IMG/VR virus record: IMGVR_UViG_3300030333_002778
Location: 1-64,000 of that record
Strand: one strand, 5' to 3'
Length of the DNA stretch: 64,000 nucleotides
Source: a virus
How positions within the stretch are numbered: the first letter of the stretch is position 1; every line of letters starts with the position of its first letter. A program made the position numbers and the translations under genes. Positions 14,030 through 53,300 of the stretch are shown here, one piece after another. A model generated the notes under the pieces. The model was not told the DNA's origin, did not search any database, and worked only from the letters and a program-made list of their open reading frames with translations.

Positions 14030-16042
14030 TTAAAAGGTTTTTTTAGTCTTCTTAAATAAAGAAGATCTCCAAAATTTATCACCTTCACTAAATTTAAATT
14101 GCGCCTCTAAATCAATATGATAGTTTTCATGACTATGTAATATACATAACATAAATGCTATTACACGGTCAAAGTTACCATCTTTCTCATAAGCTATCAA
14201 CTCCTGAATTAAAGGAATTGAATATATACTATGGAGATTTAATTGATCTCCTTCTTCAGTATCTGCTCGTTTTTCTAACAACCAATCTCTTAAATAAATT
14301 TCACATTGTACTTTAATAGGTTGGCTCATATGAACACCATATCCTCTACTTACCGTAGATCTATTTACAATATCTTTTAATATATTTGGTTGTGGTTTTA
14401 ACAAATGAAGACATTTTTTTTGCTCAAAATATATCTTCAATCCTTTTAAGTTATTCTCATACAAACTCTGTGCATTATAATAAGTTAAAAGCTTTCTAAC
14501 ATTTTCATAATATTCTTTAGCTGTTTCAGGTCTACCTGTATATTCTGCTACAGGAATATTATAAGTTTTATCAAACTTCTGAAATGTTTTATATATGAAA
14601 GTACTTCCTAAAGAACTAGTAGTAGAATCGTCCTGATCATAAGGGTCAGTTCCAGCTATGTATAATCCATAAGGAGTATTACCATCATTATCTCTAAAAG
14701 GATGTTCCCATATTACAACACATCCTGTTTTATCATCTGTAGGTTTAATTGGGAATTTAGTTATAGGTTTTAATTCTATATTAGGCATCCATTTAACTAT
14801 ATCCTTTTCCCAATACAGCTCTCCTAACATAGCCATGTCTTGAGCTTTCTTAGTTACTTCTAATTCTCCTAACCAAGCATTCAACTCAATAGTTGGGAAT
14901 ATATTTCCACTACTTTTTAGAAATGCTTCTCTAGGAGTTTTAGGAGATTGTGTAATATACTTTTCCCATGTAGTTCTTGAATCTGTAGTTTTAATGATCT
15001 TTCTTTCTTGATCTAAAAATTCTTCTGCTGCAGCTCTATTTGAGTTACCTTCTTCATCTACCATAGAAACTACATCACCATTTTCTAAAGTAACTTTTCC
15101 TGGTTTATACCACATATCATCTATAAAGAACCCACAATTAGTTCCAGCTCCTCCTTCATCCCATACATTTTCAAATGGTCTTAACCAATATTTATCAGGG
15201 TTATAAAACATTTCTGCAAAATCATTTGATCCTCCTTCCATATCACCACCCGTTCCGAATATTAATGGCATACCAATCATTACATTACCATCTCTAAATA
15301 CAGGTGCTGTAATCATATATGCATTTATAAGATTAGGAAATTTACCAGCTTCTTCCCATAACATAAGATCGGCAGTTTTACCAATAGCTGCTGAAAAGTT
15401 ATCTTTAAATGTTAATGTAAAAATTTCACTATTATATCCATTCCATACTTCTTTACCTTCTACTATTTCTTTGAATCTAGCTTTAACAAAATCTCTACGA
15501 TCTGGATTTCTACGTTTCGCCCATGCTGTATGTTTGTTTAAAAAGTTAATCATTTCTAAACTCATGGCCATTGTAGCACCACCATATTCATTTAAATATG
15601 CACCAATAATACTTGTAGAATCCTTAAAGAAATTATATTGATGAACACATAGAGCACCATTCTTATATGAGAAACCTTTACGTCTCGCTTTAGCTACTAT
15701 CATACCTTGACCATTTTCTCTTGCTTTTTCACATTCGTCAAAATAATAATAATCCATATCTAAAAAACTTGGAAAGGTTAAAATCTTCCTTTCCAACTTT
15801 CCTTTTTTTACAGTAGCTTTTATTTGTGTAAAATTAAGATAGAAATAATGAGGTCCTGTTATTCGGACCCCACCTACTTCGAATCCTTCCAAACACCTTC
15901 TAGTTTGCTCATCCCAATATTCTCTATATGCATAGGTTCCTGGGGGAGAATTTGTGTAATAGCCATTTTTTAAAAAACTTCTAGCTTCACACGAAAACTC
16001 CCTGGTATTAACAAACGAAGGAATTTGACCGAAATGATTCAT
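14030..16042 (-). CDS. terL: Terminase large subunit
   Basis: A 670-aa packaging motor protein that cuts concatemeric DNA and pumps it through the portal. A deviant Walker A-type segment is visible at 117-127 (AKARRKGFSYK), and a Walker B at about 226-235 (LMLWEEAGKF), where the Glu is catalytic. The C-terminal nuclease half contains IAGTDPYDQDD, supplying acidic metal ligands, and a late acidic/His cluster near HSHENYHID. The length matches crAss-like TerL. It is followed by portal and the other head genes on the same strand. No small terminase is recognisable next to it. Confidence 0.9.
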   Translation of the reverse strand: MNHFGQIPSFVNTREFSCEARSFLKNGYYTNSPPGTYAYREYWDEQTRRCLEGFEVGGVRITGPHYFYLNFTQIKATVKKGKLERKILTFPSFLDMDYYYFDECEKARENGQGMIVAKARRKGFSYKNGALCVHQYNFFKDSTSIIGAYLNEYGGATMAMSLEMINFLNKHTAWAKRRNPDRRDFVKARFKEIVEGKEVWNGYNSEIFTLTFKDNFSAAIGKTADLMLWEEAGKFPNLINAYMITAPVFRDGNVMIGMPLIFGTGGDMEGGSNDFAEMFYNPDKYWLRPFENVWDEGGAGTNCGFFIDDMWYKPGKVTLENGDVVSMVDEEGNSNRAAAEEFLDQERKIIKTTDSRTTWEKYITQSPKTPREAFLKSSGNIFPTIELNAWLGELEVTKKAQDMAMLGELYWEKDIVKWMPNIELKPITKFPIKPTDDKTGCVVIWEHPFRDNDGNTPYGLYIAGTDPYDQDDSTTSSLGSTFIYKTFQKFDKTYNIPVAEYTGRPETAKEYYENVRKLLTYYNAQSLYENNLKGLKIYFEQKKCLHLLKPQPNILKDIVNRSTVSRGYGVHMSQPIKVQCEIYLRDWLLEKRADTEEGDQLNLHSIYSIPLIQELIAYEKDGNFDRVIAFMLCILHSHENYHIDLEAQFKFSEGDKFWRSSLFKKTKKTF

Positions 16043-16257
16043 TTTTTCTTAGCAACTTTTTCAAATCCACTAATACCAAAACATCCGAGTACTACCCAGA
16101 CAAATGAATCATATACAAATTCATTTATAACTAGATCATGTCCTACTGATCCTGTTACTAAATCGATTACCATTACAATAATCATTATTAAAAAAGCCAC
16201 GAATCCTACGATAGCTTTTTCATTCCAATCATTGGAATCTTTAAAAATTTCCATCAT
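16039..16257 (-). CDS. Small two-helix membrane protein, holin-like
   Basis: A 72-aa protein with two predicted membrane helices, about residues 16-36 (IVGFVAFLIMIIVMVIDLVTG) and 50-64 (SFVWVVLGCFGI), and a basic tail KVAKKK. Size, two helices and charged tail fit a class II phage holin, which opens the inner membrane at lysis. A generic membrane protein cannot be excluded. It overlaps the TerL start by 4 nt and precedes a run of exported proteins, so a place in the lysis/envelope cassette is likely. Confidence 0.6.
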   Translation of the reverse strand: MMEIFKDSNDWNEKAIVGFVAFLIMIIVMVIDLVTGSVGHDLVINEFVYDSFVWVVLGCFGISGFEKVAKKK

Positions 16258-16258
16258 A

Positions 16259-16636
16259 CTAATTAAATTTATTTAACATTAAAGTATCTATAGAATGCTG
16301 AACAGTTTTTTTGTCCGCATCTAATTTAAACATAACATTAGCATTAAACCTTTCTTTTTCTTCCCCACTTTCAAAAATTATAACAGTAGGTATAGCACTA
16401 ACATTATACATTGATTGAACATCCATATACATAGAAATATCTATTCTATAAACTTTACAATCTTTTAATTTTGATAATTCTTTAAATTCATTAGCAGAAT
16501 TCCACGATGCCCAAAACTCAACCGCTACTATATTCTTTGCTATTTTTGATTTAAAATTATCTGAATTTAACATTTCTTGACCTATACAATTATTCAATCC
16601 AAATAGTATCAAAAAACTAATTATAATTCTTTTCAT
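16259..16636 (-). CDS. Exported thioredoxin-fold protein lacking the CxxC pair
   Basis: A 125-aa protein with an N-terminal export signal (MKRIIISFLILFGLNNCIGQ). A Cys at 17 would fit a lipoprotein only loosely. The mature part follows the thioredoxin pattern: VAVEFWASW at 37-45, then SAIPTVIIFESGE around 80-92 with the conserved cis-Pro at 83. The redox motif that should follow W45 (Cys-x-x-Cys) reads NSAN, so both catalytic Cys are Asn, and disulfide chemistry is unlikely. A periplasmic binding or chaperone-like role is possible. It overlaps the next upstream gene by 4 nt and lies in the exported-protein cassette. Confidence 0.7.
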   Translation of the reverse strand: MKRIIISFLILFGLNNCIGQEMLNSDNFKSKIAKNIVAVEFWASWNSANEFKELSKLKDCKVYRIDISMYMDVQSMYNVSAIPTVIIFESGEEKERFNANVMFKLDADKKTVQHSIDTLMLNKFN

Positions 16637-16977
16637 TTTCTTAATAGTTTTATTTCATCCTTAAGTTCATCAAGGTCTTTTATTAATTGATCAATTTGAT
16701 TACGAGCCATTTGATCTTTCATATTAAACTCCATACGAGTTGGAGGCCATGTATTACTAGCAGCTGGATCTCCCATATCTATTGTATATGTACCTGTTCC
16801 TGGTTTTGGCATTTCTAAAGCTCTTTCTACTTTATCTTCTAATTCTACAAACTTAGAATTTATAGTACCCATTAAACCAAAGTAAGCAGATATAACACTA
16901 GCAACTCCTACTACTATACCTATTAAAGTTTTTATACTTATTTGAAATTTACTTTCTTCTGAGAGTTCTTTTGCCAT
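16633..16977 (-). CDS. Membrane-anchored coiled-coil protein
   Basis: A 114-aa protein with one membrane helix at about residues 15-37 (TLIGIVVGVASVISAYFGLMG). A coiled-coil stretch follows it (INSKFVELEDKVERALEM), and there is a second coiled coil at the C-terminus (QIDQLIKDLDELKDEIKLLRK). The region between is rich in Pro, Gly and Thr. The layout recalls phage spanin subunits or holin-associated proteins, but no lipobox or partner signature proves this. It overlaps genes on both sides by 1-4 nt, so it is translated together with the exported thioredoxin-like and T9SS-tailed proteins. Confidence 0.6.
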   Translation of the reverse strand: MAKELSEESKFQISIKTLIGIVVGVASVISAYFGLMGTINSKFVELEDKVERALEMPKPGTGTYTIDMGDPAASNTWPPTRMEFNMKDQMARNQIDQLIKDLDELKDEIKLLRK

Positions 16978-17747
16978 TATTTTGTTATTAAATATTTAAC
17001 TTTTCCACTTTGAATATATAATCCATCTGGCTCTCTAATAGCTTGTCCTAATAAATTATACATTATATTATTATCTTTAGAATTTTCTATTATATCAGGA
17101 ATATTAGATGAACAAGGAAGTCCTGTGTCACAATCTAAATATTCTGTTATTACAACATCTACATATTCTATTATAGTATCAGTTGTAAAAAACTCTACAT
17201 ATTCTATTTCTACTATAGTATCAAATACAATTACATCTACATATTCAATAACATCTACAAATAATGTATCTAATACATCTTCGTATATAGTTACTGTATC
17301 TGTTACAAATATATACTCAGGTACAAATGTTTCTACTTCTACTGTATCTATTAAGATCTGAGTTATATATTCAGTATTATATATTGTATCTATTTGAAAG
17401 ATTGTTTCATATATATAAAATGGAACCTCTAGAGTATCTGTTTCAAAAACATATTCTATTACATCTACATATACTGTGTCACAATCTGGTGGAGGTGGTA
17501 TACAATCCATAGGTGAAGTTGGTACTACATCAGCTCCCTCATCACTGGCATCGACACAATCTACCCACCCATCATTAATCCATTGAGTAACAACGCATCC
17601 ATCAGGTGCATATTGAGTCCAATTTGCTGGATCATCTCCACAATAAAAACCTTCTTGTTCAGCACAGTCTAAACATAATTGCTGAAAATCAAATTGAGAA
17701 TAAGCAAACGAGCTTATTAACAAAAGTATGTATATTATATTCTTCAT
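16977..17747 (-). CDS. Secreted LDLa-like protein with type IX secretion tail
   Basis: A 256-aa protein with a clear signal peptide (1-17, cleavage after AYS). Residues 25-73 are Cys-rich and end in DGWVDCVDASDEGAD, the calcium-binding signature of LDL-receptor class A modules. Residues 88-205 are a low-complexity repeat of acidic beta-like units such as DTVYVDVIEYV and DTIIEYVDVV. The last 30 residues (NIMYNLLGQAIREPDG, then LYIQSGKVKYLITK) match the ending of the Bacteroidota type IX secretion (T9SS) type A sorting domain, YNLLGQ...GLYI..GK. It should be exported and displayed on, or released from, the host surface. A role in adhesion, spread or superinfection control is inferred. Confidence 0.7.
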   Translation of the reverse strand: MKNIIYILLLISSFAYSQFDFQQLCLDCAEQEGFYCGDDPANWTQYAPDGCVVTQWINDGWVDCVDASDEGADVVPTSPMDCIPPPPDCDTVYVDVIEYVFETDTLEVPFYIYETIFQIDTIYNTEYITQILIDTVEVETFVPEYIFVTDTVTIYEDVLDTLFVDVIEYVDVIVFDTIVEIEYVEFFTTDTIIEYVDVVITEYLDCDTGLPCSSNIPDIIENSKDNNIMYNLLGQAIREPDGLYIQSGKVKYLITK

Positions 17748-17751
17748 TATT

Positions 17752-18774
17752 TTAAAATATTAAATAGTTAAACCCAAACCTTACATCGAAAATTTCTTTA
17801 CCCCAGTAACGCATATGTGTTCCTTCTACAAACATTCCTAAATGTCTATTAAGTCTAGCACCTAATACTATACCTGCATCCCATTCTAATAGATCTAAAC
17901 CATCTTCATATTCATAAGAATATTTATCTAATCCATAATGAAAAGGTAATACATTACCCCATGCATGTAACCAAAAATTCTCTGTCCATTTATAATAAGC
18001 TACTCCAAATACAGTGCTTATTTCTTTCTGCAAACCAAGTCTAGAAAGCTCTTGTTCATTAAATGATGCTACAGCATCTCCAAAATAATGCTTAAAAAAC
18101 TCATCATCACTTGTTGCAACTAATTCTTCTCCTTGAAACCAATGCCATTCTCCTTGTACATATTGTGTAGAATATCCAAAATCTTCAGCTAGATCTTGGA
18201 ATGTTGATTCACCTGGTACCCAAAAATCTTCTATAGGATTTATTCCGTATGCAGGATGCACTCTCATTACTGCACCTGCACTTATATCTATATTACCTTT
18301 ATTCCATCTATATCTTGTATCAAAAGAAGTATATTTTAAATCTACTCTTTGGTTATCTTTGTACTGGAATTTTGTGACGCATTTAGTTCCCAAGTATCTA
18401 ATCCAGTAATCCTGATCAGTAAACTTTTCACCACGATTACGTATAAAAGAATAATTAAACAAATACTCCCAACCATTAGCATTACCAATAGTAACGTCAT
18501 CTGAAACATTTCTTTCATCACCATAATACCATGTTTTAACTTTGTATTCATAATCAAATCTTGCTATTTTACGAAGGCCTACCGTTATATTAAAATCATA
18601 AGGATTGACCTCCGTTACATCCTCATAACCTTTATTTACCGCAATATAATCCTCTCTTTCTGTCATTGATGTTCCCATTGACATCGATGAATAAAAGGTT
18701 GAGTATTTAAAAAAATTATTCTGTCCTGTTGCAAAACTAAAACAAAATATTAATATGTATAAAATTCTTTTCAT
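17752..18774 (-). CDS. Phage-encoded outer-membrane beta-barrel protein
   Basis: A 340-aa protein with a signal peptide (MKRILYILIFCFSFATGQ). Alternating aromatic/hydrophobic beta strands run through the rest (VDLKYTSFDTRYRWNKGNID, WDAGIVLGARLNRHLGMFVE), and it ends in an aromatic strand DVRFGFNYLIF with C-terminal Phe. This is the usual signature of a BAM-assembled outer-membrane barrel. It begins one base before the stop of the small basic gene upstream (TAATG coupling). Such a protein could mask receptors or change the host surface. The family is not recognised, but the outer-membrane location is well supported. Confidence 0.7.
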   Translation of the reverse strand: MKRILYILIFCFSFATGQNNFFKYSTFYSSMSMGTSMTEREDYIAVNKGYEDVTEVNPYDFNITVGLRKIARFDYEYKVKTWYYGDERNVSDDVTIGNANGWEYLFNYSFIRNRGEKFTDQDYWIRYLGTKCVTKFQYKDNQRVDLKYTSFDTRYRWNKGNIDISAGAVMRVHPAYGINPIEDFWVPGESTFQDLAEDFGYSTQYVQGEWHWFQGEELVATSDDEFFKHYFGDAVASFNEQELSRLGLQKEISTVFGVAYYKWTENFWLHAWGNVLPFHYGLDKYSYEYEDGLDLLEWDAGIVLGARLNRHLGMFVEGTHMRYWGKEIFDVRFGFNYLIF

Positions 18775-18908: not shown

Positions 18909-19137
18909 TTCTAAATTTCATTAATTCCGCACACCTTTCATATTCTTCTTCTTCCTCGTAATATTGTATTAAAACATCTACATCACATTCTTCATCTTCT
19001 AACATATTAAAAGGTAGCATTACTTCATCCTTATTATCTAATATTTCATCAAATGTACATTTACCAGTAATAATAAGATAAGCATTATCAAATGCTTCAC
19101 TTAATATTTCAGTATCATACTTTTCTTGCCTATGCAT
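18880..19137 (-). CDS. Small acidic protein, paralogue of 41,026-41,373
   Basis: An 85-aa acidic protein. Its C-terminal half, DVDVLIQYYEEEEEYERCAEL, closely resembles the end of the protein at 41,026-41,373 (VFDVLLDYFESTEEYEICADI). The shared pattern is D-V-L-[IL]-x-Y-[YF]-E-x-x-E-E-Y-E-x-C-A-[ED]-[LI], predicted to be two short helices. I recall similar short acidic proteins repeated in crAss-like genomes, with unknown function. It overlaps the genes on either side (8 nt with DUF5675, 29 nt with the basic protein), so it is part of one operon. Confidence 0.7.
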   Translation of the reverse strand: MHRQEKYDTEILSEAFDNAYLIITGKCTFDEILDNKDEVMLPFNMLEDEECDVDVLIQYYEEEEEYERCAELMKFRNDKKSSVCI

Positions 19138-19609
19138 AATCTACATATTTAATTGTAACCTCTTCTCCAGCTTCTAATGCAGCTGCAATAGGAGGATATA
19201 TCCTAGCATATGCTTGAGAAGACTTTCCTATAAATCCATCTTTCTTTATTTGATTATTAGTTTGAGTATCTCCTACTAATAAACAACCAGCAGTATGCTC
19301 GTCAGTATTTCCACAATGTATGAGAATATACTTAAAATTAGGAACATTAATAACATGCAAGGTACCCTTATGTATATCGGCAAACCGTTTAGTATAGTTA
19401 TCATGGATCCTACCGATCTTTCTAAGTATAACTTTATACTCTCCGGCAGGGATTCTAGTCTCCGCCATAACTTTTTCATTGTAACTATCTCTATATTCAT
19501 CTTCTAATGTGTATGCTAAAAACTTAGCGTTATCTGGATCTGTAACGTCAAACAACACTCCCGATGTTGAGTCCTCTCCACTACTTATTCTTATTACTTT
19601 TAATTTCAT
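19130..19609 (-). CDS. DUF5675 family protein
   Basis: A 159-aa protein with the DUF5675 layout: YTLEDEYRDSYNEK, then ETRIPAGEYKVILR, then HKGTLHVINVPNFKYILIH followed by GNTDEHTAGCLLVGDT. The conserved His and the Cys in TAGCLLVG suggest a catalytic pair like that of YkuD-type L,D-transpeptidases, so a peptidoglycan-related enzyme is possible, but that is inference. Members are common in phages of Bacteroidota. No signal peptide is seen. It overlaps the next upstream gene (19,581-19,829) by 29 nt. Confidence 0.8.
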   Translation of the reverse strand: MKLKVIRISSGEDSTSGVLFDVTDPDNAKFLAYTLEDEYRDSYNEKVMAETRIPAGEYKVILRKIGRIHDNYTKRFADIHKGTLHVINVPNFKYILIHCGNTDEHTAGCLLVGDTQTNNQIKKDGFIGKSSQAYARIYPPIAAALEAGEEVTIKYVDYA

Positions 19610-34407: not shown

Positions 34408-35442
34408 ATGTATAAAATAAATATTTCGTTAACCAAAGAAGCTGTACTTAATAAAATAAGTTCGTACCAAATTTTTAGTTATTATTTGGGCCGTGATTTT
34501 AAATCCGGCATAGTATTGAGTAGTCCCTTTAGACAAGATGATAAACCAAGTTTTTCTTTGTTTACCGATCGTAAAGGGACTATTCGGTATAAAGATTTTG
34601 GTACTGGTGAATCGGGTGATTGTTTTAATTTTATTCAGAAGAAATTCGGAATAGGTTTTTACGATTGCCTTATTCGCATTAATAACGACTTTAAATTGGA
34701 CTTAATGTACAGTGGAATTGGCAGAACAACTGTTCCTTATGACGGTTTCAAGACTGCAATCAAAGAACTAAATTTTAATCCTAAAAAATCTATAAATGTT
34801 AAAGTACAACCTTATACTTTTATAGATGAACATTACTGGAATCAATATGGTATTGACAAGAATTTACTTAAAGTATATAATGTATTTTCTTGTAAATGTG
34901 TTTTCATTGGAGATAAAACTGTAGCTACTTATGTAAATAATAATCCTATTTACGGCTATTTGTTTTATAAAGATGAAGAATACACATGGAAAATCTATCG
35001 TCCTTTATCTATTAACGGATACAAATGGATGAGCAATACCAATAGAACTGTATTTCAAGGATGGGATCAATTACCTAGAAAAGGTGATTTTATTATTATT
35101 ACTAAAGCATTGAAAGATGTTATGGTATTAAGAACATTAGGATTCATAAGTGTTGCATTGCAAAATGAAATCGCAGGTATAAAGGATACTGTTGCTCATG
35201 AATTATATGAGAGATTTAATGATGTATATATATTAAATGATTTTGATTATACTGGCGTAAGAGGCGCTAATAAACTAAAAAAGAAATATGGTTTCAAACC
35301 TATATTTCTTCAATGTTTTAAAACAAGATCAAATGGATTTAAAGATATATCTGATTTCAGAAAATCTCATTCATATGAAGAAAGTAAAAGTTTAATAAAA
35401 AAATTAATAGATAAATGGAAATACGAAGAGAACAACCCGTAG
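34408..35442 (+). CDS. DnaG-type primase (TOPRIM) with altered catalytic site
   Basis: A 344-aa protein. The N-terminal part has SPFRQDDKPSFSLF and TIRYKDFGTGESGDCFNFIQ, the pattern of phage primase N-terminal domains, but without the usual zinc-ligand cysteines. The TOPRIM domain is at 225-300. The first motif reads IIITKALKDVMVL, with Lys where the catalytic Glu is expected. The second motif is YILNDFDYTG (D278, D280). Primer synthesis for the adjacent DnaB-like helicase is likely. The change from Glu to Lys should be checked, as it also seems present in some other phages. It overlaps the next gene by 28 nt. Confidence 0.8.
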   Translation: MYKINISLTKEAVLNKISSYQIFSYYLGRDFKSGIVLSSPFRQDDKPSFSLFTDRKGTIRYKDFGTGESGDCFNFIQKKFGIGFYDCLIRINNDFKLDLMYSGIGRTTVPYDGFKTAIKELNFNPKKSINVKVQPYTFIDEHYWNQYGIDKNLLKVYNVFSCKCVFIGDKTVATYVNNNPIYGYLFYKDEEYTWKIYRPLSINGYKWMSNTNRTVFQGWDQLPRKGDFIIITKALKDVMVLRTLGFISVALQNEIAGIKDTVAHELYERFNDVYILNDFDYTGVRGANKLKKKYGFKPIFLQCFKTRSNGFKDISDFRKSHSYEESKSLIKKLIDKWKYEENNP

Positions 35443-37895
35443 AAGAATTTATTGGAAAAGCTAAATCTAATAAATTCAAGATTGGTGATGATTCTGTAGG
35501 AATAATCATCGACTCTTTAATTAATTTATATTCTGATCCTATTGGTTCTATTGTAAGAGAGGTAACATCTAATTGTTATGATGCTCATAGAGAAAAACGT
35601 CTTAAAAGAAAAGGAGTAATTCCTATGACTTCTGAAGACAAACTTCAATATTGGCATAAAGAAGATAAAAACCCTCAAATAGAATTTCAAGATGAGAATA
35701 TATTATTAGGTATTGGTAATGCAATGATATTTAGAGATTTTGGCGTTGGATTAAGTCAATATAGAGTAGAAACTATCTATACTATGTTTGGTAATTCAAC
35801 TAAAAGAGATAACAATCTACAAATTGGTGGATTTGGAATTGGTGCTAAATCTCCATTTGCATATACTGATACTTTTTATATTATAGCAAATCATAATGGT
35901 ATAAAATATTCATATATGTTATACAAAGGTAACGATGCATTTCATATGGATATGATAAAGAAAGTACCAACATCAGATTTAAATTCAACTGAAGTTATTA
36001 TACCTATAAAAGAACATTCAGATCTCAGAACATTTAGAAAATCTATAGAACAACAACTATTATATTTTGAAAATATTAGATATATAAATGTCGAAGAAGG
36101 TTTAGGAGCTAATATTAAATCTATAGCGTGTGATTATGAAGATGAAGATTTAGCTATTTCTTTAGATTTAAAATCTGCAAGTATAGATCAAGAACTTCAT
36201 TGTATGGTAGGTAGAGTCAGATATCCTTTAGATTTTAATTCTTTAGATAATATTTGGAAAGATAATTATAATAATAAAGAAAAAGATATTCCTGCTGCAA
36301 TTAAATTTGATATTGGTGAAATTGATTTGGTCCCTTCAAGGGAAAATATTCGATATACTGATAGAACTAAAGAAGCTATTAAAGCTAAGATTGAATCTGT
36401 TAGAAAAAGTTGTATATATGATTGTAATAGAGAATTAAATAATGCTACTGATTTTATACACTGGTTAGAAATGTCTACTTCTATTCTTAAAAGGGATACT
36501 TGGCGAAGAACTTATGATAGTGTTTTTGAAATAAGAGCTTCTTTAGCAGGATTGAAGAAAGACGATATTAAATTAAATTTAGTAGGTGAACTAAGTGTCA
36601 ATCCTTTATTAGATAAATCTGAAACTAAAATGTTTTCCGGCTTTACTTGTTATACTATTTCAAAAGAACCTAGTAAAAATCATGTAGGTGGTTATAGATT
36701 ACTTAAAAAAGTATCAGTTTTAAAAGATTTCTTAAATTATCCGGTTTATTATCAAGAACAAAATTATGAACCTGATGAAGAAGGGAATGTTAAGACAAAA
36801 ACTTTTAGAAAAGCTAAAGATATGGCTATTTTAAATTATGTTTTAGAATCTAATAAAAACTCTTTTATTCAATTAAGAAAGAATAGAATAGATGATAAAG
36901 TTATTGAATCTGAAAAAGAAATTGATCTTTGGAATAATAAACAAGAAGCCAGGGAACCAGAAGTAATTAAATCTGATTTTGAAATTATGTCTAAACTTAT
37001 AGATGGGTGTAAACATAGATTTAGAATGTATGATGATTTTAAACAAGAAGTATCAGATGATTTAGTTGGTGAATATGAATCCGATCAAGCAAGAAGAAAA
37101 AGATTGGGTAAAATATTTGGTAGAAAACTTTATTTAGGTCGTAATATGGACGAAGCTAAATTTGGTAATATAGAAACTGAAGTTACTGATCTAGGAGCTT
37201 ATAAGGATAAAGGTGGTATTGTAATATATGGTTTTTCAAAAGACAATGAGTTATTAAAACAGATAGGAGGTATTTGTAGACAAAATGGAATGAATGAACA
37301 TGCTCCTGAGTATGCTAATACTAACTTTAACTGGGCTCCAGCGGAAGAAAATAGGCAAAGTTATAGAGATTTTCATGAAGGAGTTGTTATTTTAAAAGTA
37401 GCAGCTAATCTTAAAGATCAATTAGCCGAATTTATAAATGTTAATGACTTGTTTAAAATGAAACACGATATAATAAAAAAATGGTATACTTCTCATCTTA
37501 TTATGGAAGATACCGAAAAGATTAATTTCTTTCAATTCTTTAGAACTTTAAATGAAGATTTGTTTTATAAATGGCGTAAACTTCACAGACTCCATGATAA
37601 AAACTATCGTAGATTTAGATATCTAAATGAATATCAGTCTGATGAATTACTTGATTTATGTAAATCAAATAATTTACAAGATGATAAAGCTTTAGAAACT
37701 CTAAAAGAATTAAAACAATATGCCGAAGGTTTAGATTTACTTAAATATATAGATATAATACAACCTACTCAAGAAGAAACGAGAATAGAAAATAAACAAT
37801 TATTTCTTGAGTTACGTAAGTATCTTAAATTTAAGAATAAAGCTACTTTAAAGTATAAAAAAATTAGAAAAAATAATAAAAAATTAGTAAATTAG
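35415..37895 (+). CDS. rIIA-like GHKL ATPase
   Basis: An 826-aa protein. The GHKL (Hsp90-type) ATPase fold is clear in the first 250 residues: the N-box is SIVREVTSNCYDAH (about 45-58), then FRDFGVGLS, then IGGFGIGAKSPFAY (about 138-151). The length and the rIIB homologue directly downstream fit T4-type rIIA, a membrane-associated protein that protects the infected cell against prophage-encoded exclusion and affects lysis timing. The C-terminal two thirds are long helices, ending in a Lys/Asn-rich tail. It starts inside the primase gene end. Confidence 0.85.
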   Translation: MEIRREQPVEEFIGKAKSNKFKIGDDSVGIIIDSLINLYSDPIGSIVREVTSNCYDAHREKRLKRKGVIPMTSEDKLQYWHKEDKNPQIEFQDENILLGIGNAMIFRDFGVGLSQYRVETIYTMFGNSTKRDNNLQIGGFGIGAKSPFAYTDTFYIIANHNGIKYSYMLYKGNDAFHMDMIKKVPTSDLNSTEVIIPIKEHSDLRTFRKSIEQQLLYFENIRYINVEEGLGANIKSIACDYEDEDLAISLDLKSASIDQELHCMVGRVRYPLDFNSLDNIWKDNYNNKEKDIPAAIKFDIGEIDLVPSRENIRYTDRTKEAIKAKIESVRKSCIYDCNRELNNATDFIHWLEMSTSILKRDTWRRTYDSVFEIRASLAGLKKDDIKLNLVGELSVNPLLDKSETKMFSGFTCYTISKEPSKNHVGGYRLLKKVSVLKDFLNYPVYYQEQNYEPDEEGNVKTKTFRKAKDMAILNYVLESNKNSFIQLRKNRIDDKVIESEKEIDLWNNKQEAREPEVIKSDFEIMSKLIDGCKHRFRMYDDFKQEVSDDLVGEYESDQARRKRLGKIFGRKLYLGRNMDEAKFGNIETEVTDLGAYKDKGGIVIYGFSKDNELLKQIGGICRQNGMNEHAPEYANTNFNWAPAEENRQSYRDFHEGVVILKVAANLKDQLAEFINVNDLFKMKHDIIKKWYTSHLIMEDTEKINFFQFFRTLNEDLFYKWRKLHRLHDKNYRRFRYLNEYQSDELLDLCKSNNLQDDKALETLKELKQYAEGLDLLKYIDIIQPTQEETRIENKQLFLELRKYLKFKNKATLKYKKIRKNNKKLVN

Positions 37896-41030: not shown

Positions 41031-41373
41031 CTTCATGTCCGGGATTTAATAGATATCTAATCAATTTCCCCCTTTTTTCAGAACGCGACTTATTCGCTTT
41101 TGTAATATTATCTTTTATTTGTTTAATATCCGCGCATATTTCATACTCTTCTGTGCTTTCAAAATAATCTAATAGAACATCAAATACTGATCTATCTTCA
41201 TATTCAGTTAAAAGCCAGAAAAAAGTATTAGGAAATATACTAAAGTCATAATTACTAAGTATTAATCTATAAGTATTAATCATAGATGATCTTTTAATTA
41301 TTTCTTTTTCTTTTTCACTAAATTCTTCTTCTTCTTCGAAATCATCGTTAAAATTATCAAAACTGTATTTCAT
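41026..41373 (-). CDS. Acidic protein, paralogue of 18,880-19,137
   Basis: A 115-aa acidic protein. The first third is very acidic (NDDFEEEEEFSEKEKEII). The middle has SNYDFSIFPNTFFWLL, and the C-terminal half carries VFDVLLDYFESTEEYEICADI, shared with the 85-aa protein at 18,880-19,137. The pair suggests duplication of a short acidic helical module. The start overlaps the stop of the giant polyprotein gene by one base, so it is translated after it. Function is unknown. Confidence 0.65.
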   Translation of the reverse strand: MKYSFDNFNDDFEEEEEFSEKEKEIIKRSSMINTYRLILSNYDFSIFPNTFFWLLTEYEDRSVFDVLLDYFESTEEYEICADIKQIKDNITKANKSRSEKRGKLIRYLLNPGHEE

Positions 41374-44300
41374 TATTTAAGATCAAAGAATTTTATTTTA
41401 TCTCCAGGATGTGTATTCCATTCCTTAAATGGTAATATTCTCTTAAAGTATTTACTTATTTTAGCATCTCCTTTATCATAACCTCTAGTCTTTCTCTTAT
41501 ATCTTTCAAAATCTCCACCTGTTAATACAGATGTTAAATCTGATGTACCTTGAGAGAAGAATTTATATAATGCTTCTAGTCCAGACATACCTGCCATTGG
41601 TGTTCTTAATATATCAAAGAATGCAGTCGTAGGTAAGTAGAATAATAATTCTGATTCTACCCTTTTGATCGTATATAAAGCCTGCCATTCTGCTCTACTA
41701 AGCTCATCATCTTCTTTATCTCCTCTTATTCTTCCAGGTAATATTAATAACAACATTAAGAAAGCTATTTCTCCTAGCGCTCTTTTTAAATTAGCTTTTT
41801 GCCATGTAGGTAATTCTTTATAACGTTTACCAAATTCAAAATTAAGTTGTCTAGCTTCTTTAAACATAGTAACTATAAATTTAGCCGCGGTTACATAGTT
41901 TCCTTCTACTTCAGACATCAATCTTTCATTATAATCTGCTTTTTTATAAGGAGATTTAGCATCATAGATTACTTTTTCTATTCCTTCAAATCTTCTCATT
42001 GCTCCTGGTCTAAGCCATTTACGGAACTGCATAGCTGCTCTACCCATTGCATATTGTTGTAAAGCTGCTCTGTCTGATGAATTATAAATACCATGCATTC
42101 TTTGATAAACTGCTTTTACTCTTTCTATAAAATCAGTTTTATCTCTATGTGTAAATTGTTCTGCTACTTCAGGATTTAGTACTAATCTTTTATCTTTTAC
42201 TTTATATGCATCCCATAGATTAATATATTTACCACTAGATAACTTAAACTGCATATTCATCATTTGTGCAATAAATAATTGAGACTGTATTCTGTGCTCT
42301 CCAGCCGACATCATAAAATAAATAGCTCCTGGGTTTAAAGATCTAATAAAGAAATTTTTATGGTCTATTCTTTGTCCCGCTTCATTAAAATTGGATAAAA
42401 CATCAAAGTTTTCTAATAACATTCCTAATTTTGAAGTAGGTCTTCTTGATGCGACATCATTTATTATTCCAGGTAATGATAAATTGTATTTAGCAGTACT
42501 CTTTCCATAAGTTTTTAAATTTAGATATTGTCCTGCAAAAGCTTCTACCCAGTTTAATAACATACCAAACCCTGCATTAGATAAACCAACGTGTGGGTTT
42601 AATGCTAATACTCTTAATGCATTATAATTAATAGCAAGATCTACTAACTTAGTGTCTGTTATCTGTCTAGTTCCTCCGCCTAATGTTTTAATAGTCGAAC
42701 CTTTTTTCTTTTTCTTTTGATAAACAATCATATCTAAATAATCGTTAAATCTATCATAAGATCTTGAAATTTCACCTGAATAAGTTATTTCTTCTCCAGT
42801 TACCTTATCTACTATAGGCATTCCTTTACCGCTCAGTTTTCTTACTTGTCTGTGTTTTAATAATTCCTTAGTCATCTCTAACTCATTAATAATAGTTTGC
42901 ATATTATTATAGTTATTAGCCATTGTAAAGAATTGTCTTAATGAGCTTCCCAAGTCGTAAGATACTTCTTCTGGAGTAAGATCAAAATTCTCACCAGTTC
43001 CTATCTTCAAAGTATAATGTGTAGGGACATAACTTAAAGGCTCTCCTGTTTTTGAAACTATTTCACCATAAGATGTTTGATCATCCCCAACAGTAAAGTA
43101 ATCTATAAGTGTTTCTTTAGCTGTTCTTTTTAGTTTTTTATCAGACTCTAATAATAACTCTGCTTTTGAAGCTCTAATAGATGGTAAGAAAAATCCTGTT
43201 TCTTCAGTCCCTCTTCTATATTGCTGTTCTAATAATGTATTAGCATATTTAAAGTTCTCTATAAAATAATTATAGAATATTTTTCTTTGATCTCCTTCAG
43301 GTAATGCTTGTAATTTTTTATACTGCTCACTATATTCTATAGGATTATTTTTAAAGAAATTAGACCAAGTATCTTTACTAGATAAATTTGTGCCATTTTG
43401 TATACTATCTCTAACAAATTTTCTTTTCTTTTCATACCATTCGTATGTATGCTGATTAAGAATTCTTCCAGTTAACTTTCCATCTTTAGTTTTTTCAAGC
43501 ATAAAATCATAAAGCTCTCTAAAACTATTTGTTCCTACCCCTTTTGAAGTTTGAAATGCTTCTAACTTCTTAATACGTTCATACAATCCTATATCCTCTT
43601 TACCTGTCCCGTATAAAAACTTTTGTTCTTGTTCATGTGTTTTATATACTTGTTCTTTAACTAATTTATCAACAGCTGCTAATACTGAATCTTTAGAATC
43701 CCCCATAGCATCTAGCCATCTAGCTAATAAACTAATATCTCTTCCCGCTTTTACTAATTCATTTTGTATAAACTCTTCTTTATTTTCAATTCTAGGATCT
43801 GAAATATAATCAGATAAGAAATTTGCTAATAAAGGTCTTCCTAAAGCTTTATATAATTCATATACTTTTTGTCTTTTATAAATAGCAGGAGCTACAATTT
43901 CATTTATTTCTTGTTCGTAGCCTTCGTTAGCTAATAGCGGAGCAGCTAATGATATTTCATCTAACATATCATATGTCTGAACAAATTTTAATACTTTATT
44001 CAGCTCTGGTATATTAACAGAACTAGTTGTTTCAAGTTCTCTTAGTTTATTGTATGCTGCATCAATATCTGCATTAGCTCTTCTCATAAATAGAATAAGC
44101 CCTTCTTTTTCTCCGATCTCATCTAGCTTTCCAAGTAAATCTTTTAATCCTGTTACATATTCTTTTGCATCTTTTTGTCGTTGTAATGAAGCTATTTTCT
44201 TTTTAAGATTGTTCTTAGCTGTTTCAAATATTTGCGATATCCTATCAGTCTCTTTATTAGCTTCTGCTTGAGCTCTTTCATTATTTGGATTTAAAAAGTT

Positions 44301-47300
44301 AAACATGTTTTTTAATGTCTTGTTCTTTATAGGCTTAAGCTTTTTAAGTTTAGAAGCTACAGGACTAGCTGGATTTAATAAATCAACACTAGTCATAATT
44401 ACTTCTCCTGCTTTATTAATTGTAACATCAGCTTCTAAGCCTACTATATTCATTTCGTCTATTTTTATTCCTTTATTCTGAATAATATATCTATATAGCG
44501 AAAGTTGTAATCTATACTGATTAAGTAAGTTATTAGGAATTGTAGCTAAAGGGCCTGTAAAAGATGGTAATTGAGACTCTAATGTTAAGAATTTACCTTT
44601 CATTTTAGTTTTAAAGTCATGTATAATTCTTTTTCCTGTAGATGTAACCTCTATAATATCTACTTGACCTCCAATAATATCACTTTTATCTGCTACTTTT
44701 GTTTCCGTGTACAATCTACTTCCAGCTGTTATTTTAGATCTAACCCAAGCTCTTAGTTTAGGTAAGTTCTTATTAATAGCAGCTTTAGAACTAGTATCTA
44801 GATTTAAAGAATCTATTATTTGTTTATCCGTTAAGTTATTTACAATACCTTCCATGGTTTTGTGTAATTGCGTACCAACACCATCTTTTAAGAATTCCCA
44901 TAATTTTTCTACTTTTTCAGATGTATTAAAAGGATTACCTGCTCTTCTATTAGCAGCTGCTACTTTTTCAGCTATTTCTTTAGAAGCAAATGGTTTAGAG
45001 AAAGCTTCTATAAAAGAAGTCGTTCTATTTAATTTTATACCATCTAATTCATAGAAATTATTTTCAGTAGTAGGATCTTGAATCCTATTACTTTCATTAA
45101 TCATCTGTGAAAAGTTTTGTTTTTGATTGTTTAAAGCATAGTACTTTTCTACTCCTAAATTATCTATATTTAAACCGGTTATATCTCCATTTAATATACG
45201 AGAAGCCATAGGTCCAAATACATTATCTAATTGTTGTCTAAGCTCATCTTTTGCTTCTTGGTTTCTAGTAAATAATGCTTTTATTTGGTCCCATATTTTT
45301 CTTAACGTTCCTATGAATCCTTTGTATTTTTCTCTAACCTGCTGTTCATTTACTATATATTCAGCTAATATCTTACCTGCAGTTTCTTTTTGGAATTGAT
45401 AGTCTTCTGTATATAATTTTTCATAATCTTTTACGACTTGGCCGTATAAATCTGTTTTAGAAGCTAGTGCTAATAGTCTTTGAACTGTAGGCTTATCTTC
45501 TAATGCTTCTATAAAGAAGTGACTTAATTCCTCTGGTACAGTATATCTATCTCTATTCTGATCTAAATACATAATTCTATTAAGCATATCAGCTGCACCT
45601 ACTGCATCTACACCTAATTTTTTCTTAAGATTATTAATAGTTACTGCTTTAACTCCAAAATGTTTTTCAGCAAATCCTATTAAATAATTATCTAGATCTT
45701 TCAAAGCAGACTCTTTCATTTCTGGGCTTAATCTATATTCAAGTGTATTATTTCTACTTGTTATAGACCCTGAATCAAACATATTTGTTTGTGGTTGAGT
45801 ATTTTGCTCTGTTTTATTGGCAGGATGGATACTTTCGTATCTTTCTTGCGCATACATTTCTACAAATCTGTATCTTTCTCCTAAAGGAGGTATTTCTTGG
45901 TATATTGCACCATTTAAATTCCCTGAATTTGTTTCGCTAGCAGCTAAAAATTTATATAATCTCCATTTACCTGCATTATATGATCTAAAATAATGTACAA
46001 ATTCATTTGAATTTGGAACAGCACCTTCAATTATAAGATTTGGGTTTTGACTTTTATGTAAATAATGTTGATTAGCCTTTAAATTATGCGCTTTAATTAA
46101 TTGCGGAGTTCTATGAAGAACTTTTTTATCTGCTATTTTTAAGAATCCAGGATCTGTAAACATATTTCTAATAATCTGATGAGTAGCATTTAAGAAATAC
46201 TGATCATTCCACATTGAATTAGCCTCTGTTCTAAAGTAATTAGTCAATCCTGAAGATTTCCAATAGGATACTGGAACAAGATCTACAAAAGAATTAGGTC
46301 CTTTCATTAATCCTGAAGTAACAATAGAATACGATATTAAAGATTTAGCTAAATTTGCTACATCTTCTCTAGGGTCTAATAATAATTCGGCCCATCTATC
46401 TGTTATCTCTGATCTTTCTGATGGGTCTAGTTTAACACTATTATTAAATGCTATTAATTGTATAAATTTATCAGAACTTAAGTTATCAGGATGTGCATAT
46501 AATAAGCCTAAGAATGGGTCATTAAATAAGTCGTGTTTCTTTTTAATTTTAGCTAACCTAGAAGCTAATGATTTTTGGTATTTGAATAATACGTTTTCAA
46601 GACTTTTTGTTCTAACTTCTCCTGATTTAGTATAAAATAATCCTCTCATAGGAGAATCAGGTTTAATTACAGAGAAATATAAACCTAAACTATTAATAGT
46701 ATCTATATTTTGTGGTGATAATATACCATCTTCTTGACCTGTTAATTGTGCTATATTTCTTTTTAATTCTATAAACCCATTTTTATTAAATGGAATAAAG
46801 AAACTTGTAAATTCATTAGCGGATTCTATACCATATGTTATGTAAGACTGTACTCTCTTAGGTATTTTAGTAATTTCTATAGCAGATTTACTACTTTGTA
46901 TATAATCTACATTATCCATAAATTGTTCTAGGTAACTTAATCTACTAAATCGTTTTATACCATCTGGTGATAAATATCTATTACTTTTTGAAACATCTTT
47001 TGCTACTTTTAAGTATCTCATAAAGTCACTTAAAATTTGTATTTGTTTTTTAAGATCTGCTTCATTTGAAAGATCTGCTTGTAAACCTGTATCATTTAAA
47101 TAAGATGCAGTAGGAGTAAATTCTATTAGATTTTTTCTATTTATATTATTATAATAATCTAGTTGGCCTAATTGTTCTGCAGTAGTTCTAGCAATTTGAG
47201 CATGATTAGTAAAAGCAGGCGCATTTTTTACATTTTGTTCTAATTTTCTTATAATAGGCTGATTTATAAAATCTAATGCAGTTTCAACATTAAATCCAGC

Positions 47301-50300
47301 TCTATTTAGTATAGCAATTACTCCATGGTTAAATAGAGTTACACCTGCACGACCAATTCTTAAGTTTTTAGCATTATCTAAAGACTCACTCTGATGTGCA
47401 GCTATATAATTTAATATATATTCTCCATCAAAACCTTTTATTTTTGTCAGATCTACATGTGATGAAATATTATTTGCTCTTATGTTTATAGAATACTCTG
47501 GTTTTATTGTCATATCAGTAGACTGTGAAAGCGCGCTTCCTACAGAATGGTTTGAAAATGCTCCAATTAATGCAGCTGCTTGTTTATTAACCTCTTCTAA
47601 GTACATTTGACCTGAAGTACTAAATAAATTTAACCTACTCATTGTAGGAATTATACCTAATCTTTCGTATTTATTAATTAGATTTACATAAACATCTGTA
47701 TCTAGAGGATTCATAACCTCTTCTACATGATTTTTAGAAGTTAGAATAGTATAATTTATATCATATATTAAATTATCTAAAGCTTTTGTAGATACGCCAT
47801 CAAAATTTTGTTTTTCTTTATATTTTACATAATCAAAAGCTGAAATCTTTTCTCCATTATTTGTTAGTTCGGGGAACATTAAGAACATTTTATCAATATC
47901 AAAATCAGCTCCCATTTTATTTACAACTTCAGTAGGTAATATTACTATACCACCCGCGTTCTCTGGTAAGACTTCTACTATTTCTAATGCCATCATAGAA
48001 ACTTTTAATTGTGTAGGAATCCTATAACCAATAGATGTAAGTGCTTCTCTAGTTATGTTATTTTTAGCTAGATATTCTTCTGTAACTACTCCTGCAGGTA
48101 AATTATATTTAGCTCCTAATTGATAAGGTAATTTTATTTGAGCTACAAAACCTCCGTTTTTAGTAGGCTTTATAGTAAGTTCATCTGAAAGTTTATGTCC
48201 ATACTGAGCTATTTGAATAGCCCCCATTCCTTTTGTTTTCTGTCTTAAAACTCTATTTTTATATAGATTATTTAAAATAGACTCAAATGTTTTTGCAAAT
48301 GTAGGAAAAGAAAGAGGTGCTTGGAAATCATATCTAGTTTCTATATTATCAATTATTTCGTCTATATTTAATATCAAATAATAATTATCCTCTAATTCTC
48401 TTTCGTTTAAAGAATTTTCTAATATACCTCTAACCTTTAAAAGAAATTTTTTCTGATCTTCATAGTACTGATTAAATTCAGCTGCACCTTTTATTTCATC
48501 TCTATTTTCATATCGTTCCTTAAACTCTTGCCAACCCATTTCTTTTACTAATCCATCATGAGATCTTTTTATTTTTTCTGCAAATGCACTATCATATAAA
48601 TCTCTTATTTGATCTCCTTTTATAGAAATACCATTTAATGTGTAATTAAAATTAGACTCTATATTAGCAGTAATAAGTTTACCAAATTGAGTTCCATATA
48701 ATTGTTTTTTAGCTTTAAAATCAACTACTTGTGGTGATCTTAGATTTCTAGTATCTAACTCAGTTACTACTATATCTTTTAATTGTTCTTGAGTTGTTGG
48801 ATTTGATATACCAACAGCTCCTGTCTTAACTGCAGACTCAAAACTTACCATATCTATTTTCTTAAGACCGCTGTATTTACCTACAGCTTCCATACGTTGT
48901 CTTAAGTTATTTATCGTTACTGATTCTGAGCTATCTTTTTCATTTTCTGTCATCTCTCTTAATAATGGATAAACAGAGTGTTTAATTTGCTCCCATACTA
49001 GAGTTTTTCTACCATTATTATCTTCTACTATTCTATCTCCCCAATAAAAAGTTTTTAAAGGATCAAATAATAGTTTTTTAGATTCTTTATTTCCTAGTTT
49101 TCCTTTTGACCAATATTTCTCATAGTATACTCCATGCTTTTCAGGTATCCATTTACCCTGGGACTCTAAATAAGATTTATAAAATTCTATAGTAGAAAAA
49201 CTTTGCGCATCTGTTTTATTTAGATTGGCAAATTGGTCTGCTATTTGATCAGCCTTTTTAGAACCGGCTTCTTTCAATGCTTTACGTATATTCTCAACTA
49301 ATGTAGGATCTTTTTTATATACATCTTTAAATATAGAATGTGATATAGTATTACTCATACCATACTTTCCTATTACAGGATCAAATCCAGGAGTTATACC
49401 TGCATAATTTCTTTTACCCGCATCTATAAATATATTACCTGTATTATCTGCTTTATAAAATGCAGGATCCCCCATCATCATAGTATATATATGAGGTAAA
49501 TAAACAATATCATTAATAGCAAATTCTACCAAAGCTGGCATAATATTTGTATTAATAGTCTTTCCCTGTAAACTTTTAGGAGGTAATAATATATTCTTAT
49601 ATGTATTATCTTTTTCGTTCTTAGAAACTATTCCTTCTTTTTCAAATTTGTTTAAAGTCTCTGTTATATTTTGTATAACATATTCTCTGAGTTTATTTTT
49701 TATCTCTTTAACGGCATTACTCATCTGCTCTTGACTAGCAGTATTTGAGTCTCTTAACATTCCTAACTCAGTATAGAAATCTATATTATTTAAAGTAGGA
49801 AATATAATAAATCTTAATCCATTTGCATTTTTTCTATCACTCATATGATCTCCAGGCTCATTTTTATAATGATAATTCTGTATCATACTTTCTCTGCTTA
49901 TTTTATTATCTCCAAATAATTGGTCTTGAACTTTTAATATTCTACCATACTCTCTTAAAGCTAGCGGATATAATAAATCTACTGCAGTATCTACAAATTG
50001 ATTAGCTTGGTTAACACTAGTGCCATTCCAAGTTATATGACTAGATCCTGGATATATTCTAGGTAATGCCATATACATAGATTGCATTTTATCAGATCTA
50101 GTTCCTATATTTATTTTAGTAAAAGGCTGACTTCTATCAGTAAAAAAAGCCCATCTAGTTAAAAGAGATTGTTGTGGATTTAAATCTTTATAAGATGTTG
50201 ATCTTCCTTTATATCCTGCTTCCTTAAGAGAGTCTAATGTAACTATACTTAATTTTTCTCTAACATTATCAAATTTTTCTATAAGATCAAGGATTAAATG

Positions 50301-53300
50301 ATCTTCATAGAATGTATCTTGTTTATATTTATTTATAGCGCTTTCATAAGTATTTTTACTTCTTAGTTCTAATACTCTTTTAGAATCAAATGTATTTAGA
50401 TTAATAGCATATATATTTTTACCATTACTATGGAAAGAAGCTAAGGCTTTATCTACTTTAAAGTTAGATGCTAATTGAGCAAACTTATTTAAAGACCCCA
50501 TTTCCATATCTCCTGCAACAAATGGGCTGATTCCTTTTCTTAATTTAGCTAGTATATGTGAATAAGAATTTGATCCTGACATATACTTATGTAAGTCTCT
50601 AACAAAAACTTCATCATTATTATATAAACTATTATAAGCTTCATTAGGAATTAATATACCAGTTCTATCTAGTATTTTTTTCATCTGCTCAATATACTTC
50701 TTCTTAACTTCTCTATGAGCATTCATCTCTTTTTGCTGATCTCCTTCTTTTACAATAAACTTTAGATTTGACCATAAGTCAAATATTTCTTTAGCTGTAG
50801 ACTCATTTATAGTATCTTGTTTACCTTCTTGTATATTAAATAGATCTGTAGTTACTTCTCTATTTCCTATCCAATCATTGATAATCATTCTATTAAAACT
50901 ATTTCTATTTGCATAGACTAGTTTTATCATACCATCTTGAATAATAGGAATTTCAAAATCTATAAGTTGATCATTCATATGGGTTATAAACTTATTTTTA
51001 AAAGCCGGTGACCCATTATTTATTCTATCCAATACAACCTCCGCTATTTTATTATCCTCTGCTAATAGCTCTAATCTATTCATTACATCTCCCTGTGGAG
51101 TATTCGCTAATGCAAATTTTAAATAAGAGTAAACTTCAGAGAATGAGTAGAAACTTTTTTCTCCTAATAAACCTCCTCTAGACCCATCATTTTTTTGTAT
51201 TAAAGATAGTTCTATTTTTACATCTTTAGATAATGTAGCTTTTCTAGGTCTCTCAAAGAAATTTATCCCATGAATATGTTGCGCTGTTTCTAATTCTGCG
51301 TTTTCTAAATCAGTTTCAAACTCTTCTGATGCTGCTATATCAGATGTATTTTCTTCAGAAATATCTATTTGTTCTTCTATTTCAGCATTTTGAGTTTCTA
51401 TTAATTTTCCAGACTCTTTAAATCCGAATCTTACACCAAATACTGTTAAGTTTCTAACAACAAGATCTCGGAATCCGGGGCTAACAACATTTATATTATT
51501 TTCATCAAATTGACTATAAAAGTTTTCTTGTAATGCTGCTTTTGACCATTCTTCTCCTTGTTCTATTCCTGCTTCTGTCATCTGCTCACCTATCCTTTCC
51601 ATATTTTGTCTTGCAGCTTCTAGTTTTGCTACTAATATTTTAGGATCTGTTAATTTTTCTAGCCATAAATCACCATATTCTTTCTGATAAGCTTCTCGCA
51701 TCTTATTAGTAATCACATCTACAATTTCATTCTTTTGAATATTAGTATATCCAGGCTTTTGTCTTAGTTTATACGCGACTGTTGATCGTTCTCTTAATTC
51801 TTTAGTAGTATACTTATTATAGTTTCTAGAACTTAAATCACTAAACATCTCATTAAGAGTAAGATCCATACCTAAGAATTTCTTTATGTATGTCATAATA
51901 TCCTTAAAGAATTTAGCTATGGTTCCTATTAAACCTCTATTTTCTTGAGTAATTCTATACTCCATAAAAGATTCCGCTAATTTTGTTTCAAGCTCTTGTT
52001 GATTTTGTATACCCCACTGTTGTTGAGCAGCTTTAAATAAAGAAGATTTTTCATTAGCAGTTAAATGTAAATCTATTATTCTTCGCATAGCTTCCCAATA
52101 AGCTGTACCTTTCTTAGCAAATTGTGCTAATGTTACCATACCCTGATGGTAATATCCATAAGCTTGACGACCATCTTTTAAAGTAATATACTTAACTCTT
52201 GCAGCTATTTCTAATCCCTCTTCACCAAACTTATCAATAAACCATTGTACTTCTTCTTCAGATAATAAAAGATTAGATTCTGGATTAACTTCATATTGTC
52301 TTAATTTAAAATCAGTATCTATATCATCACGAGATTTTGTAGGAGGCTTCTTTTTAGGCGCTTTTTTTATTATTTCCTTCTTTTTATTCTTTTTTTCCAT
52401 CTGTTCTCTTGCAAAATTATCTAGATTTTGCATTTTACTAGGGTCAAAAGATGGACTATACTTATTATCTATCTGAGCTTGTGGATCAAATCCAAATAAA
52501 TTAGAATTTTGATTAAATTCAGGCCCTTTATTTAAGAAATCTGGGACTTTTTTTGGATTAGATTTAAATTTTTCTTCAGTAGGCTCTACATAAATATTAG
52601 AATTATAGAACTGTTGAGATCCATTAGCTGGAATATCTGTTGAAATAGGTAATATATTAGGATCTGTTAAGTATTCAAAATAAGAATTCCATGACCCTAG
52701 TTTAGATTGAAAAGGATCTTTCATCATTTCCATTCTAGCCTTCTGAATATTATATTTCTTACTCATAAGATGTTCAACTAGTGCTTCTCTTATACTTTTT
52801 CCACTCAGATCTAGAGTTTTAGAACTTATATATTTATTTTTTCCTTGTTTTTTAACAGCTCCTGTTTCTTTATCGTATTCAACAAAGAAAAATTCAGGAT
52901 TGTATGATAAATTATGTCCATTAAGAGCTGTTAGAAAATTATTTCTTTTATTTTGTCCTGCAGCACGGTATTGTAATCCAATAATTTTATCTTTATATGG
53001 AAATACTATTTCAAAATTATCAAACACAAGTCCTGGAGCATTCTTGCTATACGTTCTTACAGTATTAACTATTTTTTTAATCTCACTTTCTATAGTAGCC
53101 GGAGTTAAACTATAGTCTAATATAATTTCAATAACTGCATCAGCTGCTTCTTGACTTAGATTAGATGTAGATAATCTAACAGGAGTAAGTATTCCGTTTG
53201 CTCTTTTAATAGCAGCATATATAGCACCATGCTCTATAAAAGTAGAAATATCAAAATCCATATTATTTTTTTGCCATATAATAACACCTTCATTTTTATT

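Follow-up and report, generated by a model that had tools for sequence, protein, structure and literature searches.

A predicted T9SS-exported surface protein with an LDLa-like head, encoded beside an outer-membrane barrel gene in a crAss-like phage

The locus and its genes

The window analyzed here is a stretch of 64,000 nucleotides, positions 1 to 64,000 of the 89,460-base IMG/VR virus record IMGVR_UViG_3300030333_002778. The gene that concerns us occupies 16977..17747 on the minus strand, begins with an ATG codon, and encodes a protein of 256 aa. Over the same interval (16977-17747) the plus strand is non-coding; an ORF on that strand (17125-17361) was considered and rejected, being merely the antisense of the stalk region. 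The parts of the gene and its immediate neighbors are as follows.

16977..17747, minus strand: main gene, predicted T9SS-exported surface protein with a signal peptide, LDLa-like head, acidic stalk, and short CTD
17697..17747, minus strand: predicted signal peptide, residues 1-17, MKNIIYILLLISSFAYS; the mature chain starts at Q18
17502..17675, minus strand: LDLa-like head, residues 25-82; putative calcium-cage acids D59, D63, D69, and E70
17130..17480, minus strand: acidic beta-type stalk, residues 90-206, with DT every 10-17 residues and no K/R/H
16980..17105, minus strand: predicted short T9SS CTD, residues 215-256; predicted cleavage between S214 and N215, with Ile at +2
17752..18774, minus strand: partner outer-membrane beta-barrel, 340 aa, with a signal peptide and C-terminal Phe; starts the two-gene unit
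16633..16977, minus strand: small single-TM protein, MAKELSEESKFQ..., with weak XhlA/Rz-like Pfam/PHROG matches; conserved neighbor
16259..16636, minus strand: secreted thioredoxin-fold protein (PF00085, 1e-9); conserved neighbor
16039..16257, minus strand: small membrane protein, FKDSNDWNEKAIVGFVAF, a holin candidate; conserved neighbor

A sequence-only reading of this DNA had proposed a phage gene with a signal peptide, a Cys-rich segment, an acidic region, and a T9SS-like ending, and all of these are present, on the minus strand. Two features were absent from that reading, namely the lack of K, R, and H throughout the mature chain and the coupled outer-membrane barrel gene at 17752-18774. 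The hydrophobic N-terminus of the protein ends AYSQ; its assignment as a signal peptide is based on a pattern that is conserved among aligned relatives and on a helix over residues 2-16 in the structure model.

In IMG/VR, a scan with the single sequence recovered 40 relatives at 50-83% identity and an alignment query recovered 220, so this ORF is far from a chance one. The INPHARED phages hold no relative of the main protein, yielding two chance matches only (E about 5), and searches against Pfam, NCBIfam, PHROGs, and TIGR04183 gave a weak LDLa match and nothing else. Head and tail hardly change across 36 aligned sequences, and the stalk varies in length. As we read it from the sequence, the layout combines a putative binding head with a spacer and an anchor.

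The surroundings contain recognizable phage genes, including those for a terminase, a portal, a major head protein, and a DNA polymerase, together with a RIIA-like gene at 35415-37895 whose product is a homologue of the RIIA-like lysis inhibitor (phrog_612, 5.9e-58). The terminase is 42% identical to that of cr118_1 (Crassvirales, Suoliviridae), and the PHROG assignments of the portal and the major head protein match as well. A single ORF of 5153 aa fills 41373-56834, as expected for the giant transcription protein of crAss-like phages. With terminase, portal, major head protein, and giant ORF all of the Crassvirales kind, the phage is crAss-like, a placement made by similarity alone. A DUF5675 protein (PF18925, 3.7e-24) is encoded at 19130-19609, adjoining the gene block.

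On the other side of the main gene, the single-TM protein at 16633..16977 likely belongs to a lysis module. The thioredoxin-fold protein (16259-16636), which stands beside lysis-type genes, lacks a CxxC active site and has SWNSAN instead. The small membrane protein at 16039..16257 has no convincing match in Pfam, NCBIfam, or PHROGs.

The barrel partner

The pairing of the two genes is constant. All 78 loci with room for it have the barrel gene upstream, at a median gap of 6 nt, and the cargo gene is found downstream of the barrel in 72/72 loci with room (66 recognized by a strict head pattern, and six variants by eye). The AF2 model of the partner is a beta-barrel (pLDDT 78), and its Foldseek matches are to autotransporter barrels, FapF, and porins. 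Homology to PorP/SprF or PorV was considered for the barrel and is not supported, as there is no Pfam or NCBIfam match and these best fold matches are generic. No barrel relative was found in the INPHARED phages, and in the cultured crAss-like relatives Fpv20, FPSV-F12, phi14:2, and Azobacteroides phage neither cargo nor barrel is annotated upstream of the terminase.

The LDLa-like head and its bacterial relative

The Cys-rich segment contains DGWVDCVDASDEGAD, which corresponds to residues 59-73. Across the 36 aligned sequences D59, G60, D63, C64, D69, and E70 are invariant, and we take the acids among these to match the calcium-cage positions of LDLa (LA5). The Pfam model of the LDL receptor class A module, PF00057, matches 28/36 relatives (best E 4e-4), and the window copy scores 13.8 bits, under the Pfam gathering score of 24.1. 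The structure model of the head is confident (pLDDT about 89). A comparison of such a model with LDLa had been suggested by the sequence-only reading: 29 of the 31 Foldseek matches are LDLa-containing or LDLa-type modules, at E > 1, the module being small, with a TM score to the target of up to 0.62 and an rmsd of about 2 A over about 40 columns.

The head shares with LDL receptor class A the acids of the calcium cage (DGxxDCxDxxDE) and, in the model, a probable likeness in overall fold, but it does not have the six-cysteine I-III, II-V, IV-VI pattern of PF00057. The fourth cysteine position is taken by Asn58, which is invariant in the 36 aligned sequences; the next Cys after C64 is C82, so that the sixth LDLa cysteine is displaced; and there is an extra Cys toward the N-terminus. 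Because the fourth Cys is replaced and the sixth displaced, we term the head LDLa-like and not strict LDLa. That wording is supported, and the head would be expected to bind calcium. The module first proposed here is supported by its acids, by the LDLa-type nature of its Foldseek matches, and by the PF00057 matches among relatives, and not by the cysteine pattern or the Pfam cut-off for the window copy.

Such modules are rare in bacteria. A GTDB-wide scan for the head returned a sole bacterial relative, a 1138-aa protein encoded in a Crocinitomicaceae MAG (PBMY01000001.1) and bearing the head in duplicate; when 399 genomes of the order were sampled, the module turned up in this one and in no other. 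The gene for the 1138-aa protein sits amid ordinary chromosomal genes. Its product has a tail that scores 41.5 bits with TIGR04183, and the one cellular relative of the head is consequently a T9SS cargo itself. The same genome encodes PorP-family proteins and 53 tails over the TIGR04183 cut-off.

The acidic stalk and the absence of basic residues

The stalk ranges from ~60 to 170 residues in length across the relatives and has a pLDDT of about 30 in the structure model. The mature chains of 83 relatives add up to 16,067 residues without a single K, R, or H, a count to be read as one constraint repeated and not as 83 independent events, the sequences being mutually related. The CTDs of these 83 hold 552 K/R in 3,388 residues (16%), and K+R+H makes up 12-15% of other window proteins, the barrel included. 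The switch from no basic residues to many coincides with the predicted PorU site, which supports the view of the tail as a separate, removable tag.

The 1138-aa Crocinitomicaceae cargo comes close to this composition: its mature part, of about 1,013 residues, contains neither K nor R, and seven His. T9SS cargo of that genome (loci L124-L153) is strongly depleted of K/R in the mature part, several proteins being near zero, and its basic residues lie in the CTD; the median K+R of the mature part is 2.7%. Such depletion may be a mark of exported proteins generally rather than of T9SS cargo. The total lack of basic residues in the phage chain, nearly matched by one host T9SS cargo, is a constraint on its composition.

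The C-terminal tail as a predicted short CTD

Ye et al. (2025) described 48 short CTDs of 43-55 aa in Prevotella intermedia, which they called the only species reported with both long and short CTDs (PMC11969387). These have Ile at +2 of the cleavage site, a motif B (Tyr, Gly), a motif D (GxY then Ile), a basic motif E, and a motif B-D spacing of 1-6 aa; they are predicted to bind PorV as long CTDs do, and for five of them the cleavage site has been mapped experimentally (PMC11969387).

The phage protein ends YNLLGQAIREPDGLYIQSGKVKYL. Its tail shows motif B as Y230..G234, motif D as G242-L-Y-I245, and a basic motif E made up of K249, K251, and K256. The residues after the predicted cleavage site are N215-I216 in the window, and +2 is Ile or Met/Leu/Val in nearly all of the 83 relatives. 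In the family the predicted CTD is always C-terminal and measures 40-43 aa, which puts it on the lower limit of the published P. intermedia range of 43-55 aa or slightly under it. A motif B/D pattern (in which Tyr may be Phe and the motif D Gly may be Ser, with a spacing of 6) fits 83/83; a looser version fits 82 family members and only three of the other ~2,660 phage ORFs.

The standard model, TIGR04183, is silent on the window protein, on the whole phage record, and on all 36 relatives (curated cut-off 23 bits). This search had been put forward as a check on the proposed sorting signal, and taken literally its result is a refutation. The silence is nevertheless not decisive against a T9SS reading, because the model, which describes a domain of ~72 residues where the phage tail has ~42 aa, also misses or barely registers short tails of the host kind: of four flavobacterial proteins with matching short tails it missed three and gave the fourth an E of 0.37.

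Those host tails came from a search of 399 genomes of the order in which phage tails were the sole query and which gave five matches below E 2e-4. All five are the exact C-terminus of a small signal-peptide protein (e.g., SGIEEMRPAQITNGKMYDLLGRELKEAPFRQLYIQNGKKLFRIE), and SprA, which is common in that order, is present in 5/5 of the genomes with these first matches. A second search with the five host tails yielded about 20 small secreted proteins in three groups that are unrelated by mature sequence, as expected for a sorting tag. Short CTD-like tails are thus borne by about 20 small secreted flavobacterial proteins (L190-L208, L213), and these may extend the known range of short CTDs.

With a profile of the host short CTDs, the best phage tail reached 33 bits, the median being 10.6 and the window copy scoring 13.5. 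None of 2,190 shuffled tails exceeded 13.0 bits, and the ends of 1,762 other phage ORFs stayed at 7.4 or below. As the window tail barely exceeds the best shuffled one, the case for the window copy rests on the family. When phage and host short tails were aligned with hhalign, the probability was 96.8% and E 2.4e-10 over 42 columns, the full tag length, a profile comparison that is not fully independent, since the host tails had been found using the phage tails. The better check is a phylum-wide search with a combined phage and host short-tail profile. All 28 of the matches checked lay within the last 60 residues of their proteins (about four expected) and 25 of them carried the PNP-type hallmark; nine of the 10 tested were over the TIGR04183 cut-off, so that canonical type A CTDs were recovered. 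The phage-only profile, used phylum-wide, was noisier (14/25 C-terminal vs 4.6 expected, eight with the hallmark).

Long CTDs were rejected as a comparison: a profile of 28 from one genome scored the phage tails weakly and aligned with them over motif B alone. The type A tail of the sequence-only reading is best restated as a short CTD and not the TIGR04183 domain, one that matches host short tails and helps to recover type A CTDs. A second secreted phage protein is encoded just ahead of the cargo in one relative locus (L032, 341-853); its ending, KGVYIDIFGRRHSTPPKGLSIMNNQKYLRL, resembles a further short CTD.

A predicted route to the cell surface

The 256-aa protein is probably a phage-made cargo of the host T9SS that reaches the surface of the infected cell and stands there as a head-stalk-anchor fiber. 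We infer the host, and with it a T9SS, from the placement of the phage in Crassvirales and from the tail and head of the protein. The sequence shows the tag, the head, the composition, and the pairing with the barrel; the following course is proposed. The protein would be exported by Sec, with removal of residues 1-17, and the LDLa-like head would fold in a Ca2+-dependent manner. The chain would then pass through the host SprA pore, where its final ~42 residues would serve as a short CTD and bind PorV. PorU would cut near S214 and N215, and the mature chain would be bound to surface polysaccharide or released. Finally, it would act jointly with the outer-membrane barrel encoded just upstream, which might anchor or assist it, or have no mechanical link to it.

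As to purpose, we tentatively favor a remodeling of the infected-cell surface that would mask the phage receptor, by which other phages might be excluded or progeny kept off debris. Masking is favored because the cargo-barrel unit is fixed and late-type, not variable. More speculatively, the two genes may make up a display system of a large crAss-like clade, in which a barrel and a K/R/H-free T9SS fiber, with a putative calcium-binding head common to a host T9SS adhesin, would shield the receptor.

The main rival to masking is adhesion, in which the heads of a T9SS-exported adhesin would stick infected cells or debris together, to particles, or to new hosts, and so offer more contacts for progeny phages. 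LDLa modules are protein-binding modules, the head-stalk-anchor layout with its variable stalk length is suited to such a role, and the bacterial relative of the head, a big T9SS cargo with several domains and two heads, itself looks like an adhesin. Adhesion leaves the obligate barrel partner and the location beside lysis genes unexplained, however, and we regard it as possible but doubtful. Lysis comes next: the barrel and the acidic protein might break the outer membrane late in infection. Two observations speak for this: the conserved genes around the cargo encode small membrane proteins, a thioredoxin-fold protein, and, in certain relatives, what is likely a peptidoglycan peptidase; and in a PHROG search of the window no classical spanin stood out clearly. 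A spanin would not be expected to carry a T9SS-type tail and a ligand-binding head, though, and the barrel resembles an ordinary folded outer-membrane protein, which makes a lysis module unlikely.

The absolute pairing with the barrel and the silence of TIGR04183 could also be accommodated if the protein were a periplasmic subunit or plug of the barrel, its tail docking to the barrel and not serving as a T9SS tag. Against this, the tail matches C-terminal tails that the host carries on unrelated secreted proteins and helps to recover canonical T9SS CTDs, and we consider a plug quite improbable. A virion fiber, or another structural protein of the phage, is hardly credible; phage fibers do often have long beta-rich stalks, but structural proteins are not expected to have a signal peptide, and the gene lies outside the head and tail genes, adjoining lysis-type genes.

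If display through the host T9SS is true, a group of phages decorates the host surface with a conserved protein, probably a core one, by way of a secretion system that is limited to the Bacteroidota superphylum, and Flavobacterium johnsoniae would allow a direct test of the interplay of phage and T9SS. The results also suggest that flavobacteria have short CTDs, of which all earlier reports concern P. intermedia. The standard family model misses them, and current lists of T9SS cargo may therefore be incomplete.

Comparison with known systems

Phage T5 makes Llp, a receptor-blocking lipoprotein on the infected cell. The likeness to our protein is at most a functional analogy in receptor masking, there being no sequence relation, and Llp is a lipoprotein and not a T9SS cargo.

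Closer in route are two cases in which phage-encoded cargo has been predicted. In Cryophage, T9SS cargo was predicted to use the host system and superinfection exclusion was also suggested (PMC7468147); there, variable islands encode the cargo, which has type A sorting domains and consists of enzymes or of proteins with PA14 domains, whereas the present protein is a conserved LDLa-like fiber that ends in a short CTD and keeps a constant barrel partner. The crAss-BACON ORF carries a T9SS sorting domain (PMC6949934), and it shares with the present gene both the occurrence of such domains in crAss-like phages and a position upstream of the head genes. It differs in having BACON carbohydrate-binding domains and belonging to gut phages; the gene described here encodes an LDLa-like head, and its clade is not represented in the annotated phage collection. 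The earlier statement that no well-described phage effector of this type is known must be narrowed to the architecture, since predicted cargo exists in both cases; neither an LDLa-like phage protein nor a cargo-barrel pair was found in the literature searched, most subscription papers lying outside it.

By published features, the phage tag resembles the short CTDs of P. intermedia in its Ile at +2, its motifs B, D, and E, and its few strands in place of a seven-stranded sandwich. Unlike them it is phage-encoded, mostly has Gln and not Arg/Lys after the motif B Gly, and is cleaved and exported by prediction. The 1138-aa Crocinitomicaceae cargo has in common with the phage protein the Cys/Asp head (there in two copies), a K/R-free mature chain, and a T9SS tail. 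It is, however, bacterial and much larger, with PKD-like and other domains, a full-length CTD, and no acidic DT stalk.
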